Positions 27,970 through 35,038 of a DNA stretch of 64,000 nt are shown piece by piece (position 1 is the first letter of the stretch; every line of letters starts with the position of its first letter). The notes under the pieces were generated by a model, which was not told the DNA's origin, did not search any database, and saw nothing but the letters and a program-made list of their open reading frames with translations. The stretch is taken from NCBI RefSeq assembly GCF_002222655.1, contig NZ_CP022423.1:806001-870000 (forward strand), written 5' to 3'. This stretch comes from Vitreoscilla filiformis (GTDB taxonomy: Bacteria; Pseudomonadota; Gammaproteobacteria; Burkholderiales; Burkholderiaceae_C). The translations under genes were made by a program, and so were the position numbers.

Positions 27970-28047
27970 ATGTTCACCTCTCGCAAACGGATGGCGTCGA
28001 CACACGACCGGGGAGCCTGGCCCTGGCGTCGCTGGTCGCTGGTTTGA
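27970..28047 (+). CDS. trpL: trp leader peptide (TrpL)
   Basis: A 25-codon open frame from ATG 27970 to TGA 28045-28047. Its C-terminal part encodes Ala-Trp-Pro-Trp-Arg-Arg-Trp-Ser-Leu-Val, so three of its last nine residues are Trp. It is followed by an attenuator-like terminator and then trpE. No Shine-Dalgarno is visible close to the ATG (a GGGAGG lies about 22 bases upstream), which fits a leaderless or near-leaderless message. A second in-frame ATG at 27991 is an alternative start. Confidence 0.75.
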   Translation: MFTSRKRMASTHDRGAWPWRRWSLV

Positions 28048-28109
28048 GCCCACTGCGGCTCGTTGCGTCCGTTTGCCGCCGCCACCGTCTGGCGTCGGTC
28101 TTCTCTTTT
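28046..28109 (+). promoter_or_regulatory. trp attenuator
   Basis: Three pairings can be drawn. Segment 1:2 is GAGCC (28046-28050) with GGCTC (28057-28061), just at the leader stop codon. The alternative 2:3 is GCGGC (28055-28059) with GCCGC (28075-28079). The terminator 3:4 is CCG-c-CGCCA (28076-28084) with TGGCG-t-CGG (28090-28098), followed by TCTTCTCTTTT. A ribosome finishing the leader would block segment 2 and favour termination; stalling at the Trp codons would favour 2:3. This fits classical trp attenuation. Confidence 0.7.
28076..28109 (+). terminator. Attenuator terminator before trpE
   Basis: An eight-pair stem with one internal mismatch (CCG-c-CGCCA against TGGCG-t-CGG), a five-base loop CCGTC, then a pyrimidine/T-rich tract TCTTCTCTTTT. 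It ends about 100 bases upstream of the trpE GTG. Another hairpin, GGCCCG/CGGGCC at 28129-28144, follows. Confidence 0.65.
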
Positions 28110-28210
28110 GATTCCCCTCGAATTGTCTGGCCCGTGGGCGGGCCTGCGTCTTCGGTTGCGCTGCGGCGTGCCTGGGCGCAGCCCGAGCGGGTTTGCGAAA
28201 GGATTGCACC

Positions 28211-29689
28211 GTGATCACCGAACTTGAATTCAAGAGCCTGGCCGAGCAGGGCTACAACCGCATCCCGCTCATTGCCGAGGCGTTTGCCGATCTGGAAACC
28301 CCGCTCTCGCTCTATCTGAAGCTGGCGGGCGGGCAGAAGAACTCCTTCTTGCTCGAATCCGTGGTCGGCGGCGAGCGCTTCGGGCGCTACTCCTTCATTG
28401 GCCTGCCGGCGCGCACGCTGGTGCGGGCCACGGGCATGAAGTCCGAAGTCGTCACCGACGGCCAGGTGGTGGAAGTGAACGAAGGCAACCCGCTGGACTT
28501 CATCGCCGCCTACCAAGCGCGCTTCAAGCCGCTGCTGCCACCGGGGCTGCCGCGTTTTTGCGGTGGCTTGGCCGGTTACTTCGGCTACGAAACCGTGCGT
28601 TTCATCGAGAAGAAGCTCGCCGGGGTGGTGAAACCGGGCGGCATTGGCACGCCGGACATCCAGCTCTTGCAAACCGAAGAACTGGCGGTGATCGACAACC
28701 TCTCGGGCCGGCTCTACCTCATCGTCTGGGCCAACCCGAAGACGCCGGAAGCCTACTTCAGCGCCAAGCGTCGCCTGGCCGAGTTGGCGGACAAGCTGCG
28801 CTACAGCGTCACCGCCCCGCAGGTGAAACGCGGGCCGAGTTACCCGGTGGAGCGTGAGTTCGCCAAGGCGGATTTCGAGCGTGCGGTGCTCAAGGCCAAG
28901 GAGTACATCGCCGCTGGGGATTGCATGCAGATCGTCATCGGGCAGCGCTTGAAGAAGCGTTACACCGAATCGCCGCTCAGCCTGTACCGTGCGCTGCGTT
29001 CGCTCAACCCCTCGCCCTACATGTATTACTACGACATGGGGGACTTCCAGATCGTCGGCTCCAGCCCGGAAATTTTGGTGCGCCAGGAGCATCGCGGCGA
29101 GGAAGGCGAAATCGTCACCATTCGCCCGATTGCCGGCACCCGCCCACGCGGCACCACGCCGGACGCCGATCGCCAGCTCGAAGCCGATTTGCTGGCCGAC
29201 GCCAAGGAGCGCGCCGAGCACGTCATGCTGATTGACCTGGCGCGCAACGACGTGGGCCGCATCGCCCAGACCGGTTCGGTGAAGGTGACGGAGGCGTTTG
29301 GCATCGAGCGTTATTCGCATGTGATGCACATCGTCAGCAACGTCGAGGGACGGCTGAAGGACGGCTTGACGAGCTTGGATGTGCTCAAAGCCAGCTTCCC
29401 TGCCGGCACGCTGAGCGGCGCGCCCAAGATTCACGCGATGGAAATCATCGACGAGCTGGAAATCAGCCAGCGCGGCATCTATGGCGGTGCGGTGGGTTAC
29501 CTGAGTTTTGCAGGGGACATGGATGTGGCCATTGCCATCCGTACCGGCATCGTCAAGGACAACGTGCTTTACGTGCAGGCCGGCGCCGGCGTGGTGGCCG
29601 ATTCGGTGCCCGAGCTGGAGTGGAAAGAAACCGAGCAGAAGGCGCGGGCGGTGATTCGGGCGGCTGAGCTGGTGGAAGAAGGATTCTGA
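28211..29689 (+). CDS. trpE: Anthranilate synthase component I
   Basis: TrpE makes anthranilate from chorismate. The 492-residue protein has the Trp-feedback-site region LLESVVGGERFGRYSFIG and the catalytic chorismate-binding core with IAGTRPRGTTPDADRQLEAD, LIDLARNDVGRIA, FPAGTLSGAPKIHAMEIIDE and IYGGAVGYLSFAGDMD. The GTG at 28211 has AAAGGA seven bases upstream; an upstream TTG is rejected. It follows the trp attenuator. Unusually, trpG does not follow directly; a two-gene cassette intervenes. Confidence 0.97.
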   Translation: MITELEFKSLAEQGYNRIPLIAEAFADLETPLSLYLKLAGGQKNSFLLESVVGGERFGRYSFIGLPARTLVRATGMKSEVVTDGQVVEVNEGNPLDFIAAYQARFKPLLPPGLPRFCGGLAGYFGYETVRFIEKKLAGVVKPGGIGTPDIQLLQTEELAVIDNLSGRLYLIVWANPKTPEAYFSAKRRLAELADKLRYSVTAPQVKRGPSYPVEREFAKADFERAVLKAKEYIAAGDCMQIVIGQRLKKRYTESPLSLYRALRSLNPSPYMYYYDMGDFQIVGSSPEILVRQEHRGEEGEIVTIRPIAGTRPRGTTPDADRQLEADLLADAKERAEHVMLIDLARNDVGRIAQTGSVKVTEAFGIERYSHVMHIVSNVEGRLKDGLTSLDVLKASFPAGTLSGAPKIHAMEIIDELEISQRGIYGGAVGYLSFAGDMDVAIAIRTGIVKDNVLYVQAGAGVVADSVPELEWKETEQKARAVIRAAELVEEGF

Positions 29690-29721: not shown

Positions 29722-30846
29722 ATGAACATCGAGCGCATCAAAATTTCCGGCTTCAAGAGCGTTGCAGGTCTCGAATTTGACGGGCTGACGCCTTTCAGCG
29801 CATTTGCCGGCCCGAACGGCTCGGGCAAAAGCAACTGGATGGATGCGCTGACGTTTGCCGGCGCGGTGGTGGAGCTTGGGGCCATCAAGGCCCTGCGGCA
29901 ATTCCGTGGCTTTGCCCAGGTGCATTGCTACAAACTGCGCAAGGCCAATGCCCGCACGTTCACTTTCGCTTTGCAAGCGCGAATGAGCGAGCGATGTGTG
30001 GCTTACACCCTGAAGGTTCACGATATGGATTCGGAACCGAAGGTGGAAGAGCTGCTGGAAGTCGAGGGCCACAAGCGGCTGGAACGCAAAAAGGGGGGAT
30101 TTCCGCAGCTTTACACGGTAGGTGACGAGACCGTCAGCCCGACGACGATCGAGAGGTTTCCGTCGGACATGTCGGCCTTGCTGTTCACCCAAGGTGAGCT
30201 GAGTTTGTACAACTTCCTGACGAATATCGAGGTTTTTCGCTTTGATCCGTTGGGGGCTAAGGAGCCGGATGGTTCCAGTGCCGACACCACCGCGCTGCAT
30301 CCCAACGGGCACAACGTCGCCACCATGCTGGCCGCGCTGGAGAAGGACGACGAGTTCCGAACCCAGGTGCTGGATTGGATGAGCTTGCTGGTGCCGGGCA
30401 TGGAGCAGGTGCGGGCCGAGCCGGATCGCCTCAGTGGGGGCACGGTCATCAAGTTCAAGGAGGAGGGGACGAAGGCGCACTTTCCCGCCCACCTCATTTC
30501 CGACGGCACCATCTATGCGCTGTGCATCATGACGGCGGTGTTGAGCCGGGCCAAAAGCGTCGGCATCACCCTGATCGAAGAGCCCGAGCGCGGGTTGCAT
30601 CCGAAGGGCATCGAGGCGCTGGTCGATTTGATGCGCCAGAGTGCCAGCATCGAACACCCGGTTTTCGTGACGACGCACAGCGAATCCCTGGTGCGCGCCT
30701 GCCGCGAAGACGAGCTGTGGTTGATGAACAAGGTAGACGGCAAGACGGTGGCCAAAAACGCCGCCAAAAGCAGCGCAGGTCTGGGGCCAATCAACCTGGA
30801 CACGGCTTGGCTGATGAACCTGTTCGATGGAGGGCTGCCATGGTGA
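29722..30846 (+). CDS. SMC/OLD-like AAA ATPase, inserted between trpE and trpG
   Basis: A 374-residue ATPase of the AAA_15/AAA_21 (RecF/SMC/OLD-like) type. It has the opening IERIKISGFKSVAGLEF, Walker A GPNGSGKS at residues 30-37, a signature-like ISDGTIYALCIM, Walker B LIEEPERGLHP with E286-E287, and an H-loop VFVTTHSESLV. There is no TOPRIM domain in this chain. Instead, the next gene, overlapping by seven bases (ATGGTGA), is TOPRIM-like. Such ATPase/TOPRIM pairs occur in anti-phage modules (for example PARIS), but exact membership cannot be assigned by eye. The gene starts 33 bases after trpE. Confidence 0.88.
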   Translation: MNIERIKISGFKSVAGLEFDGLTPFSAFAGPNGSGKSNWMDALTFAGAVVELGAIKALRQFRGFAQVHCYKLRKANARTFTFALQARMSERCVAYTLKVHDMDSEPKVEELLEVEGHKRLERKKGGFPQLYTVGDETVSPTTIERFPSDMSALLFTQGELSLYNFLTNIEVFRFDPLGAKEPDGSSADTTALHPNGHNVATMLAALEKDDEFRTQVLDWMSLLVPGMEQVRAEPDRLSGGTVIKFKEEGTKAHFPAHLISDGTIYALCIMTAVLSRAKSVGITLIEEPERGLHPKGIEALVDLMRQSASIEHPVFVTTHSESLVRACREDELWLMNKVDGKTVAKNAAKSSAGLGPINLDTAWLMNLFDGGLPW

Positions 30847-31437
30847 GGCTCGGTTTCATCGTCGAAGGGGACTCGGAAAAAATCATGGTCGAGTCCGCCA
30901 ACTTCAAACGCTGGGCCAATGCGCAGGGGTTGGAGATTTGCCGTCCGGTCATCAACGCCAGAGGAGGGGGCAACTTGTTGCCTCAGCACATGGCGTCGAT
31001 GGTGGCGACCTTGACCAAAAGCCAGCCCGATCATGTGGTGGTGCTCACCGACTTGGAGACGGCCCCGGACATTGAAACGGTGAAGGTGCGCATCACGGAC
31101 ACCCATACCTCGCTGATCTTTGTGGCCGTCAAAGCGTTGGAAGCTTGGTTTTTGGCCGATACCGAGGCCATGCGCGCTTGGCTGAAGCAACCCGCTTTTG
31201 TGGAGGCTTCGCCAGAGCAAACGCCCAGGCATGCCGTGGGACTGGCTCAAAGAGGTGGCGCGACAACAGGGCGCACGCGGCCCCGGCCCCAGCAAGGTGA
31301 TTTTTGCCAAGCGGTTTTGCGAGGCGTTGAACTTCCAGATCGCCAATGCGGCCACTCACCCGGCTTGCCAAAGTGCAAAGACGTTTCACGATGCGTTGCT
31401 GAACCTGTCCCGCAACGCGACACCGGTCGAAAACTGA
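30840..31437 (+). CDS. TOPRIM-like (DUF4276-type) partner protein, interrupted by a +1 frameshift
   Basis: The N-terminal part (30840 to about 31226, frame of the ATG) reads MVRLGFIVEGDSEKIMVES, with the TOPRIM-like E9-G10-D11, VVVLTDLET with D71 and E73, and KALEAWFLADTEAM. The expected C-terminal part (PWDWLKEVARQQGARGPGPS, then KVIFAKRFCEAL, SAKTFHDALLNL) lies one base further on, from about 31228 to the TGA at 31435-31437. The frames join at CCC-AGG-C (31224-31230). Joined, the product is about 198 residues, a normal size for the family. Without a shift, the first frame runs to 31466 with unrelated sequence. This is a mutation, a sequence error, or +1 frameshifting. Confidence 0.68.
31224..31230 (+). 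other. Candidate +1 frameshift site CCC-AGG-C
   Basis: In the upstream frame the codons are CCC (31224) and AGG (31227). Re-pairing of a Pro tRNA from CCC to CCA, one base forward, would place the ribosome in the downstream frame (GGC ATG CCG TGG). The layout resembles the known Ty1 CUU-AGG-C +1 site. A simple one-base insertion or sequencing error gives the same picture and is the default explanation. Confidence 0.4.
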
Positions 31438-31487
31438 ATTGGGGTGTGCAGAAGCACATCCGCTGACATCAAAAGGTTAGAGCCATC

Positions 31488-32072
31488 ATGCTGCTGATGA
31501 TCGACAACTACGACTCGTTCACCTTCAACCTCGTGCAGTACTTCGGTGAGCTGGGCGAGGAGGTGCGCGTGGTGCGCAACGACGAAATCACCCTGGAAGG
31601 CATCGCCGATTTGCGCCCGGATCGGCTGGTGCTGTCGCCCGGCCCGTGCTCGCCGGCGGAGGCGGGCATCTGCGTGCCGGCCATCCAACACTTCACCGGC
31701 AAGCTGCCCATCCTGGGCGTGTGCCTGGGGCATCAAAGCATTGGCGCGGCGCTGGGCGGACGCATCATCCGCGCCAAGACGCAGATGCACGGCAAAACCA
31801 GCGTCCTCACCACCGACGGCCAAGGCGTTTACGCCGATTTGCCGACGAACTTCACGGTGATTCGCTATCACTCGCTGGCCATCGAAGAGTCCACCATGCC
31901 GAAGGAGCTGGTGGTGACTTCGCGCTCGGAAGACGGCGAAATCATGGGCGTGCGCCACCGCGAGCTGGCCGGCACGGCCACGCCGCTGGAGGGTGTGCAG
32001 TTCCACCCCGAATCGATTCTGAGCGAGCACGGCCACGCCATGCTGCGCAACTTCGTGAAGATGGGGCGTTGA
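31488..32072 (+). CDS. trpG: Anthranilate synthase component II (glutamine amidotransferase)
   Basis: TrpG supplies ammonia from glutamine to TrpE. The 194-residue class I amidotransferase has [24 protein letters not shown], the nucleophile C79 in [11 protein letters not shown], and the catalytic His-Glu in [13 protein letters not shown]. In many bacteria it may also serve as PabA; no separate pabA is visible here. It starts 51 bases after the end of the ATPase/TOPRIM-like cassette. Confidence 0.97.
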
Positions 32073-32076
32073 AACC

Positions 32077-33156
32077 ATGAGCAGCGTGAACTACGCCAGC
32101 GCCGCTGCGCCGGCCCCCGCATCCGGCCTGCCGCTGGTGGACTTGCGCAGCGACACCGTTACCCGCCCCACGCCCGCGATGCGCCAAGCCATGCTCGCCG
32201 CCGAGCTGGGCGACGATGTGTTCGGCGATGACCCGACGGTGAACGCGCTGCAAGCCCGCATCGCCGAGTTGCTGGGCTTCGAGGCGGCGCTCTTCATGCC
32301 CAGCGGCACTGCCAGCAACCTGTGCGCGCTGCTGACGCACTGCGGACGCGGGGACGAATACCTCGTCGGCCAACTGGCGCACACCTACCGCTACGAAGGC
32401 GGTGGCGCGGCGGTGCTGGGCGGCATCCAGCCGCAGCCGCTCGTGCAGCAGCCAGGCGGCGAGCTGGCGCTGGCCGACATCGCTGCGGCCATCAAACCCG
32501 ACGATGTGCATTTCGCCCGAAGCCGCTTGCTGTGCCTGGAGAACACCTGGAACGGCAAGGTGCTGGGCTTGGATTACCTGGCCGAAGCCACGGCGCTGGC
32601 ACGCCAGCGCGGCCTCAACACCCATCTGGACGGAGCACGGCTGTTCAACGCCGCTGTTGCCACCGCCGGTGCGGGCGGTGACCCGTACGCCGCCGCACGC
32701 CAGATCGCCAGCCACTTCGACAGCGTCTCCGTTTGCTTCAGCAAAGGGCTGGGCGCGCCGGTCGGCTCGGCGCTGTGCGGCTCACGCGCTTTCATCGAAC
32801 AGGCCAAACGCGCCCGCAAGATGACGGGCGGCGGGATGCGCCAAGTCGGTTTGCTGGCCGCAGGTGCGCTGCACGCGCTGGAACACCACGTTCACCGCTT
32901 GGCGGACGATCATGCCCTGGCGCGCCGTTTGGCCGAAGGGCTGGCCGCGCTGCCTGGCATCACGGTGACGCCGCCGCAAACCAACATCGTGTTCGCCGAG
33001 GTGGCCGATGGGTGCGGCGCCGCGCTGCTGGAACACCTGCGCACACGCGGCGTGCTGGCCACGGGCCTCATCGGCCTGCGTTTCGTCACCCATCTGGATG
33101 TGGACGCGGCGGGCGTGGATCGCGCCCTCGCCGCTGCCGCCGAATTTCTGCTCTGA
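32077..33156 (+). CDS. ltaE: Low-specificity L-threonine aldolase
   Basis: A 359-residue PLP enzyme cleaving L-threonine or allo-threonine to glycine and acetaldehyde. It opens [19 protein letters not shown], has [10 protein letters not shown], the [10 protein letters not shown] region, [10 protein letters not shown], and the PLP lysine in [18 protein letters not shown]. It sits between trpG and trpD, where it is not a tryptophan-pathway enzyme. It may feed glycine/serine metabolism. The start is four bases after trpG and trpD follows by 16 bases. Confidence 0.93.
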
Positions 33157-33172: not shown

Positions 33173-34213
33173 ATGAGCATCAGCAATGTGGACGCGCTGA
33201 GCCGCGTCATCGAACACCGCGAAATCTTCCACGACGAGATGCTGACGCTGATGCGCCGCATCATGAGCGGCGAGATGTCGCCGGTGATGATCGCCGCGTT
33301 GGCCGTGGGCCTGCGCGTGAAGAAGGAAAGCATCGGCGAAATCACCGCCGCCGCGCAGGTGATGCGCGAGTTCGCCACGCCCGTGCCGCTGGCCGATCGC
33401 ACTGGCCTGGTGGACATGTGCGGCACCGGCGGTGACGGTGCCCACACCTTCAACATTTCCACCACTGCCACCTTTGTGGCCGCTGCGGCGGGCGCCAAAG
33501 TGGCCAAGCACGGCGGGCGCAGTGTGTCCTCCACCAGCGGTTCAGCCGATGTGCTGGAAGCCCTGGGCGCCAACATCAACCTGCCGCCCGCGCAGGTGGC
33601 GCAGTGTTTGGCGGAGTGCGGCATCGGCTTCATGTTCGCGCCGAACCACCACCCGTCGATGAAACACGCCGCGCCTGTGCGCCGTGAGCTGGGCGTGCGC
33701 ACCATCTTCAACATCCTGGGGCCGCTGACCAACCCGGCCGGCGCGCCGAACCAAGTGATGGGCGTGTTCCACCCCGATCTGGTGGGCATCCAGGTGCGCG
33801 TGCTGCAACGCTTGGGCTCCGAGCATGTGCTCATCGTCCACGGCATGAACGGCATGGATGAAATTTCGCTCTCGGGCGAAACGCTGGTCGGCGAGCTGAA
33901 AAACGGCCAGGTGAGCGAATACCGCGTCCACCCCAGCGACTTCGGCCTGCCGGTGTACGACACCCGTGTGTTGCGCGTGGCGAATCAACAAGAGTCGGTG
34001 GACTGCGTGCGCCGCGCCCTCAGCAATGAGGACGGCCCCGTGCGCGACATCGTGCTGCTGAACGCTGGCGCGGCGATTTACGCCGGCGGCGTGGCCGCGA
34101 GCATTGAAGAAGGCGTGAAGCGGGCGCGTGAAGCCGTGGCTTCGGGCGCGGCGCTGGCCAAGCTGAGCCAGTTTGTGGAAGTCACGAACCGCCTGCGCCC
34201 GACGGCGGCCTGA
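33173..34213 (+). CDS. trpD: Anthranilate phosphoribosyltransferase
   Basis: TrpD transfers phosphoribose from PRPP to anthranilate. The 346-residue protein has the PRPP-binding [42 protein letters not shown], the [18 protein letters not shown] substrate site and LGPLTNPA. The ATG at 33173 follows AAGGACG; the frame extends upstream within ltaE but that part is out-of-phase coding and rejected. Confidence 0.97.
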
Positions 34214-34240
34214 GCCTTCTTGAGCGAAAGAGAGACCCCG

Positions 34241-35038
34241 ATGTCCACTCCCGACATCCTGCAACGCATCGTCACCGTCAAGCACGAGGAAGTGGCCGCC
34301 GCCAGCGTACGCCGTTCACTCGCCAGCCTGCGGGCCGAAGCCGAAAGCCGTACCGAGCCGACGCGCGGTTTTGCCGCCGCCCTGCGCGCCAAGGTGGCCG
34401 CTGGCCTGCCCGCCGTGATCGCCGAAGTGAAGAAGGCCAGCCCGAGCAAAGGCGTGCTGCGTGAGCACTTCGTGCCTGCCGAGATCGCCGCCAGCTACGC
34501 CCGCCACGGCGCGGCCTGCCTGAGTGTGCTGACCGACGAGCGCTTCTTCCAAGGCAGCGAAGCCTATCTGCGCGAAGCCCGCGCCGCGTGCAGCCTGCCG
34601 GTGATCCGCAAAGACTTCATCGTCGACCCGTACCAAGTGTTCGACGCCCGGGCGATGGGCGCCGACGCCATCCTCCTCATCGCTGCCTGTCTGGACGATG
34701 CGCAGATGGCCGACTTGGAAGCCACCGCTCTGGCGCTGGGCTTGGACGTGCTGGTGGAAGTCCACGACGGTGAGGAGCTGGAGCGGGCGCTGAAGCTGAG
34801 AACGCCGCTGCTGGGCATCAACAACCGCAACCTGCGGACGTTTGACGTCACGCTGAACACCACGCTGGGCTTGCTGCCGCGTGTGCCAGCGGATCGGCTG
34901 CTGGTGACCGAATCCGGCATCCTCAGCCGCGCCGACGTGCAGCAGATGCGCGCTGCCGACGTGAATGCCTTCCTCGTCGGCGAAGCCTTCATGCGCGCCG
35001 CCGACCCCGGCGCCGCGCTGGCTGAGTTGTTCGCATGA
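34241..35038 (+). CDS. trpC: Indole-3-glycerol phosphate synthase
   Basis: TrpC closes the indole ring, forming indole-3-glycerol phosphate. The 265-residue TIM-barrel enzyme opens [18 protein letters not shown] and has [68 protein letters not shown], and [13 protein letters not shown]. No TrpF domain is fused. ung overlaps its stop (ATGA). Confidence 0.97.

Follow-up and report, generated by a model that had tools for sequence, protein, structure and literature searches.

A two-gene cassette, hecA and hecB, lies between trpE and trpG in the tryptophan (trp) operon of Vitreoscilla filiformis. The DNA analysed, referred to below as the window, comprises 64,000 nucleotides (nt) of NZ_CP022423.1 (positions 806,001-870,000, forward strand), and all coordinates are window positions. 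Both genes match HEC-01 (Hma-embedded candidate), a candidate system of the PADLOC collection. We consider it likely that they form a phage-triggered ATPase-nuclease module that has been inserted in the trp operon, where it is probably carried as a passenger on the operon's transcript.

The HEC-01 gene pair

According to the original prediction, which did not name HEC-01, trpE and trpG are separated by an ATPase gene and a Toprim-type gene that overlaps it. This layout was confirmed: trpE ends at 29689, trpG starts at 31488, and hecA and hecB lie between them on the same strand with an overlap of 7 nt (hecB starts at 30840, hecA ends at 30846).

hecA encodes a protein of 374 amino acids carrying ATPase motifs. 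Pfam bore out its proposed SMC/OLD-like character, with clear ATPase-family matches (AAA_21, E=1.2e-22; AAA_15, E=3.1e-12). The PADLOC model HEC-01A (PDLC04176) covers it end to end, residues 1-374 on profile positions 1-371, with E=2.2e-159, and the AriA model is far weaker (E=1.7e-22). Its matches among PDB sequences are general ABC-type ATPases and the OLD, retron and PtuA ATPases, and those in PHROGs are confined to unknown or SbcC-like families. Two HecA homologues, P0101 and P0113, possess ∼200 extra N-terminal residues, possibly a sensor part; the idea that they are fusions of HecA and HecB was discarded, since the extension lies at the N terminus and matches nothing in Pfam at E <= 0.01.

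The HEC-01B partner lies directly 3' of hecA, where PDLC04191 matched across two reading frames; a public copy of the protein in one frame (P0123) matches HEC-01B with E=2e-87. The proposal that the second gene is of the DUF4276 and not the DUF4435 type stands in part: no DUF4435 match was found and HEC-01B was matched, but DUF4276 itself remained under its cut-off of 30.2 bits, both for hecB read from its start (24.3 bits) and for P0123 (29.6 bits). Searches of HecB against PDB sequences and PHROGs gave no match. The Toprim Glu, the DxD motif, the OLD-specific acidic residues and the Lys are all present in HecB, as paired by motif order and spacing; the second DxD position holds E (44) or D (7), and the counterpart of T506 is Ala. 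The assignment of HecB as a putative OLD-like Toprim nuclease is supported by these residues and, to a lesser degree, by the model of its fold.

Strong purifying selection acts on both genes between two genera. Comparison with the pair of Sphaerotilus natans gave ratios of nonsynonymous to synonymous substitution (dN/dS) of 0.09 for hecA, 0.10 for the first part of hecB and 0.18 for its last part, the values for trpE and trpG being 0.17 and 0.34.

Insertion at the trpE-trpG junction and family distribution

The view of the cassette as an insertion, not a housekeeping element, agrees with the trpE-trpG junctions of the genus, among which empty ones were found. No match to the pair family was found in any of the 15 congeners, two of which are <90% complete; the best other match reached E=4.7e-12 and 28% identity. 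The gap between trpE and trpG measures 12-82 bp in six congeners (G002, G003, G004, G011, G012 and G015) and 3.2-9.6 kb in five (G001, G005, G006, G007 and G013, the genes inside having been read in G005, G007 and G013 only). In two others trpG is ∼68 kb off or on another contig (G010 and G014), and two are undecided (G008, contig end; G009, no trpG found). These varied gaps indicate that the site is plastic in this genus. Other inserts at the junction were noted in several relatives, at L075, L076, L077 and L079 (8.7-9.6 kb), L083 (3.2 kb) and L081 (4.3 kb); by reading only, those of L075, L077, L083 and L081 contain an AraC-like regulator, outer-membrane-like proteins, an MscS-like channel and a kinase-like protein.

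S. natans (L089) shows the order trpE, hecA, hecB, trpG, with hecB intact. The pair is in none of 12 congeners of this species; their trpE-trpG gap is 11-32 bp in 10, and in the other 2 no trpG turned up within 1.5 kb. At one trpE locus of that genus (L142, genome G820) an apparent trpG start ends after a few codons in other sequence, again with no trpG within 1.5 kb. Over its last 500 nt, S. natans trpE shares 97-100% with three empty congeners; the first 100 nt of its trpG are 99% alike, and later 100-nt blocks downstream reach 86-100%. Such similar flanks indicate a clean insert. A repeat search revealed no target duplication at the cassette borders, and an 11-nt direct repeat at 29674/29705 could be fortuitous. 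Presence or absence at a site that is otherwise conserved fits a mobile cassette.

Noncoding sequence of the window and S. natans is 74% alike over 50 nt after hecB and 62% over 32 nt before hecA. From these alike borders, the two inserts probably share a common origin at the trpE-trpG site, through either one old insertion followed by many losses or repeated transfer. Synonymous divergence between the two species is 1.09 for hecA and 0.70 for trpE, and TrpE identity (85%) falls within the 73-92% range of the window's own congeners.

With a prevalence cut-off of E 1e-60, and with the window's own genome included in the family, class and order counts, the HEC-01 pair proved rare: at the family level 2 of 399 genomes carry it, at the class level 2 of 369 and at the order level 7 of 399. 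It is found in 7 of 237 genomes of a methanotroph family. Eleven of 72,556 plasmid records match, all from Escherichia coli and each annotated with pglX at the match; 26 of 5,426 E. coli genomes match, and the 10 listed among these are all flanked by pglX and pglZ. Two of 50,697 phage records match, one of 2,434 bases and one remote (28.6%).

Genomic contexts were compared, and a tree built, for 37 loci: the window's own, 24 of the 25 from one search (L113, with 63 aligned residues, was left out) and 12 from other searches. The trp operon is the context in five (own, L089, L107, L108 and L131). Type I restriction operons account for four, three recognized by hsdS, hsdM or hsdR in Pfam (L090, L093 and L116) and one by reading only (L091), and BREX operons for seven (L092, L095, L098, L110, L111 and L112 by tblastn; L151 by annotation). 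The resulting 11 of 37 loci inside type I restriction or BREX operons, together with membership of the HEC-01 family, support the predicted role in defence. Two loci from methanotroph genomes sit between prfB and lysS (L133 by Pfam, L134 by reading), genes that are usually neighbours, and one lies between glnS and selO (L117, by Pfam), where a further ATPase gene separates the pair from glnS. The remaining 18 have other contexts, seen by eye or not inspected, one of them after polA (L097).

In the tree, the window and S. natans copies form one clade (100/99) beside the restriction- and BREX-borne copies, and the methanotroph trp copies, located beside trpG, form a separate one (100/99). Two separate clades imply at least two entries into the trp operon. 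The chance of a second hit on one given operon, with a dozen insertion sites, would be a few percent by a rough estimate of our own, so this recurrence is suggestive only.

Transcription, the break in hecB and competing explanations

The features of the locus, all on the + strand, are the following:

27970-28047, +, trp leader peptide MFTSRKRMASTHDRGAWPWRRWSLV with 3 Trp codons (read from the sequence; DRGAWPW motif in relatives)
28075-28113, +, attenuator-like hairpin (28075-28099) with T-rich tail (crude scan of our own)
28193-29689, +, trpE, likely start GTG 28211 (Pfam; NCBIfam TIGR00564 above cut-off)
29722-30846, +, hecA, OLD/SMC-type ABC ATPase, HEC-01A (PADLOC PDLC04176)
30840-31229, +, hecB first part, start frame, Toprim core, border approximate (PADLOC PDLC04185 positions 1-130; translation)
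31230-31437, +, hecB last part, +1 frame, helical, conserved Lys, border approximate (PADLOC PDLC04191 positions 131-189; translation)
31442-31461, +, hairpin between hecB and trpG, without T-run (fold, z -2.4)
31488-32072, +, trpG (Pfam GATase; TIGR00566 above cut-off)
32077-33156, +, ltaE-like threonine aldolase, a usual neighbour in the genus (Pfam Beta_elim_lyase)
33173-34213, +, trpD (tblastn matches after trpG/ltaE in relatives)
34238-35038, +, trpC (tblastn matches)

The ltaE-like gene is 3' of trpG in 10 of 11 congeners examined. S. natans is able to form a hairpin similar to that at 31442-31461, but its folding energy does not exceed that of shuffled sequence (z 0.33).

All 22 relatives checked, which were selected from 42 other trpE loci, carry the leader motif DRGAWPW 5' of trpE; no such leader was present in the two methanotroph trpE genes examined. 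The hairpin after the window's leader scored 13.2, and the same scan in 15 relatives gave one score near it (G020, 12.0), seven weaker ones and seven without any hairpin; Rfam had no match to the leader region at E <= 1. The conserved Trp leader peptide supports control by the supply of Trp-tRNA, and tryptophan control of the operon is plausible. As only 32 nt separate the trpE stop from the hecA start, the cassette is probably cotranscribed with the trp operon, as originally suggested, and its dose could then follow tryptophan supply. A promoter scan over 8.2 kb found one site, equal to the shuffle mean, none at the cassette and none before trpE; since trpE lacks one as well, the scan is uninformative on the cassette. 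Terminator-like sites in the same 8.2 kb were fewer than the shuffle mean.

By analogy with PARIS and the OLD nucleases, HecA would keep HecB inactive until a phage signal is sensed; HecB, once released, would cleave nucleic acid (DNA or tRNA) using two metal ions, and infection would be stopped, probably at the cell's cost. Some results weigh against such a module. The modelled HecB matches the Toprim fold only weakly, and no experimental test of HEC-01 turned up in the literature seen. In addition, hecB is broken in the window, whereas by our own standard a working system has it as one uninterrupted gene. It had been predicted as a single frame over 30840-31437, and this proved incorrect: the start frame continues to 31466 (208 amino acids), and near 31.23 kb the C-terminal third passes into the +1 frame, ending at 31437. 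In the start frame PDLC04185 covers residues 1-130, its positions 131-185 matching the piece in the other frame, and positions 131-189 of PDLC04191 match the +1-frame piece with E=3.5e-18. The Toprim metal-site residues are 5' of the break, and the conserved Lys and the C-terminal helices 3' of it. With the C-terminal third out of frame, the window's copy probably lacks a functional effector. Unless an assembly error lies behind the break, the module may still sense its signal but is probably unable to respond.

Both parts of the pair were followed in 38 loci, of which 37 are distinct (L159 repeats L097). hecA aligns over almost its full length in 38 of 38, one copy (L096) carrying an in-frame stop, and hecB is a single frame in 33 and broken or missing in five (own, L096, L102, L107 and L111). 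A costly effector would be expected to be lost while the ATPase is retained, but the count is biased, since these loci were chosen through hecA.

Two explanations of the break concern this copy and are compatible with a phage-triggered module as the explanation for the family. A former defence cassette may be in the course of being lost, its ATPase remaining because too little time has passed. We give this a little under an even chance: the five loci with hecB broken or absent fit it, and the existence of P0123 makes the lesion young or technical, but the strong purifying selection on both genes and the intact copies in the trp operons of S. natans, L108 and L131 argue against it. Slightly less probable, and still a serious possibility, is an assembly or sequencing error in an intact module. 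In the public protein P0123 (15 members on 2 contigs, the longest of 7,429 bases) these residues stand in a single frame, which confines the break to this isolate or its assembly. Against an error, 2 contigs also carry the broken form (P0002), the longer being equal in size to the window's chromosome, and the remaining trp genes of the window are open. A programmed frameshift would explain why the two frames join without lost profile positions; it is barely credible and was rejected, because that same-residue copy, S. natans and the 33 single-frame loci use one frame.

The location could instead mean that the pair has a part in making tryptophan or in controlling its synthesis, not in defence. 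The two independent entries in the tree, the shared site in two genera and the purifying selection would favour this role, which we nevertheless regard as very improbable, given that the other trp operons examined in the two genera lack the pair and that 32 of 37 relatives are elsewhere, including the 11 in restriction-modification or BREX operons. Also improbable, if a shade less so, is a preference of HEC-01 pairs for operons that serve amino-acid supply and translation, for which the sites would be trpE|trpG (window and S. natans), beside trpG (methanotrophs), prfB|lysS and glnS..selO. Dose would then follow charged-tRNA supply, and a tRNA-cleaving HecB would raise its own expression via attenuation, a feedback-armed defence.

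Comparison with known systems

Defence genes are usually sought in defence islands; here a candidate module is within a core biosynthetic operon. A link to amino-acid supply is likely, and the locus provides a testable case of nutrient-controlled immunity, with an intact copy in S. natans.

PARIS (AriA-AriB) likewise has an OLD-type ATPase gene and a separate Toprim nuclease gene. AriB is DUF4435, whereas HecB is DUF4276-like, and membership of PARIS was ruled out, with no DUF4435 or AriB match to HecB in Pfam or PADLOC, one-frame copy included; the likeness to PARIS in the original prediction does not hold at the family level. The VIA entries name no AriB either, an absence that carries no weight. 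In PMC12409363, the PARIS ATPase is a sensor that frees a Toprim nuclease cutting tRNAs. OLD-ATPase and nuclease pairs recruited by BREX loci are interpreted as backup suicide effectors in PMC12839542. The OLD nucleases of class 1 and class 2 (Gabija GajA) share the ATPase type and the Toprim active-site set, but in the window ATPase and Toprim are on separate proteins and there is no helicase partner: the immediate neighbours of the pair are trp genes, none of them the UvrD-like helicase of Gabija. MADS mad3 and mad4 profiles match both genes weakly (HecA reaches 77.6 bits with NCBIfam MAD3, cut-off 420), and, unlike in MADS, no other MADS genes were seen beside the pair.

A literature search outside bioRxiv retrieved no paper on HEC-01 with PADLOC, DUF4276, MADS or anti-phage with tryptophan operon, and the main text of the PADLOC paper (PMC8565338) has no mention of HEC, DUF4276 or TOPRIM. 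PMC12988326 names HEC-06 as active among the HECs, and PMC12724379 only lists HEC-01 among the systems of one genome set. The window pair matches HEC-01 in both genes and has the gene order and overlap of its relatives; it differs from HEC-01 in its position in a biosynthetic operon and its out-of-frame hecB. The module is of a known kind; what is new is its lodging in a biosynthetic operon, arrived at twice.
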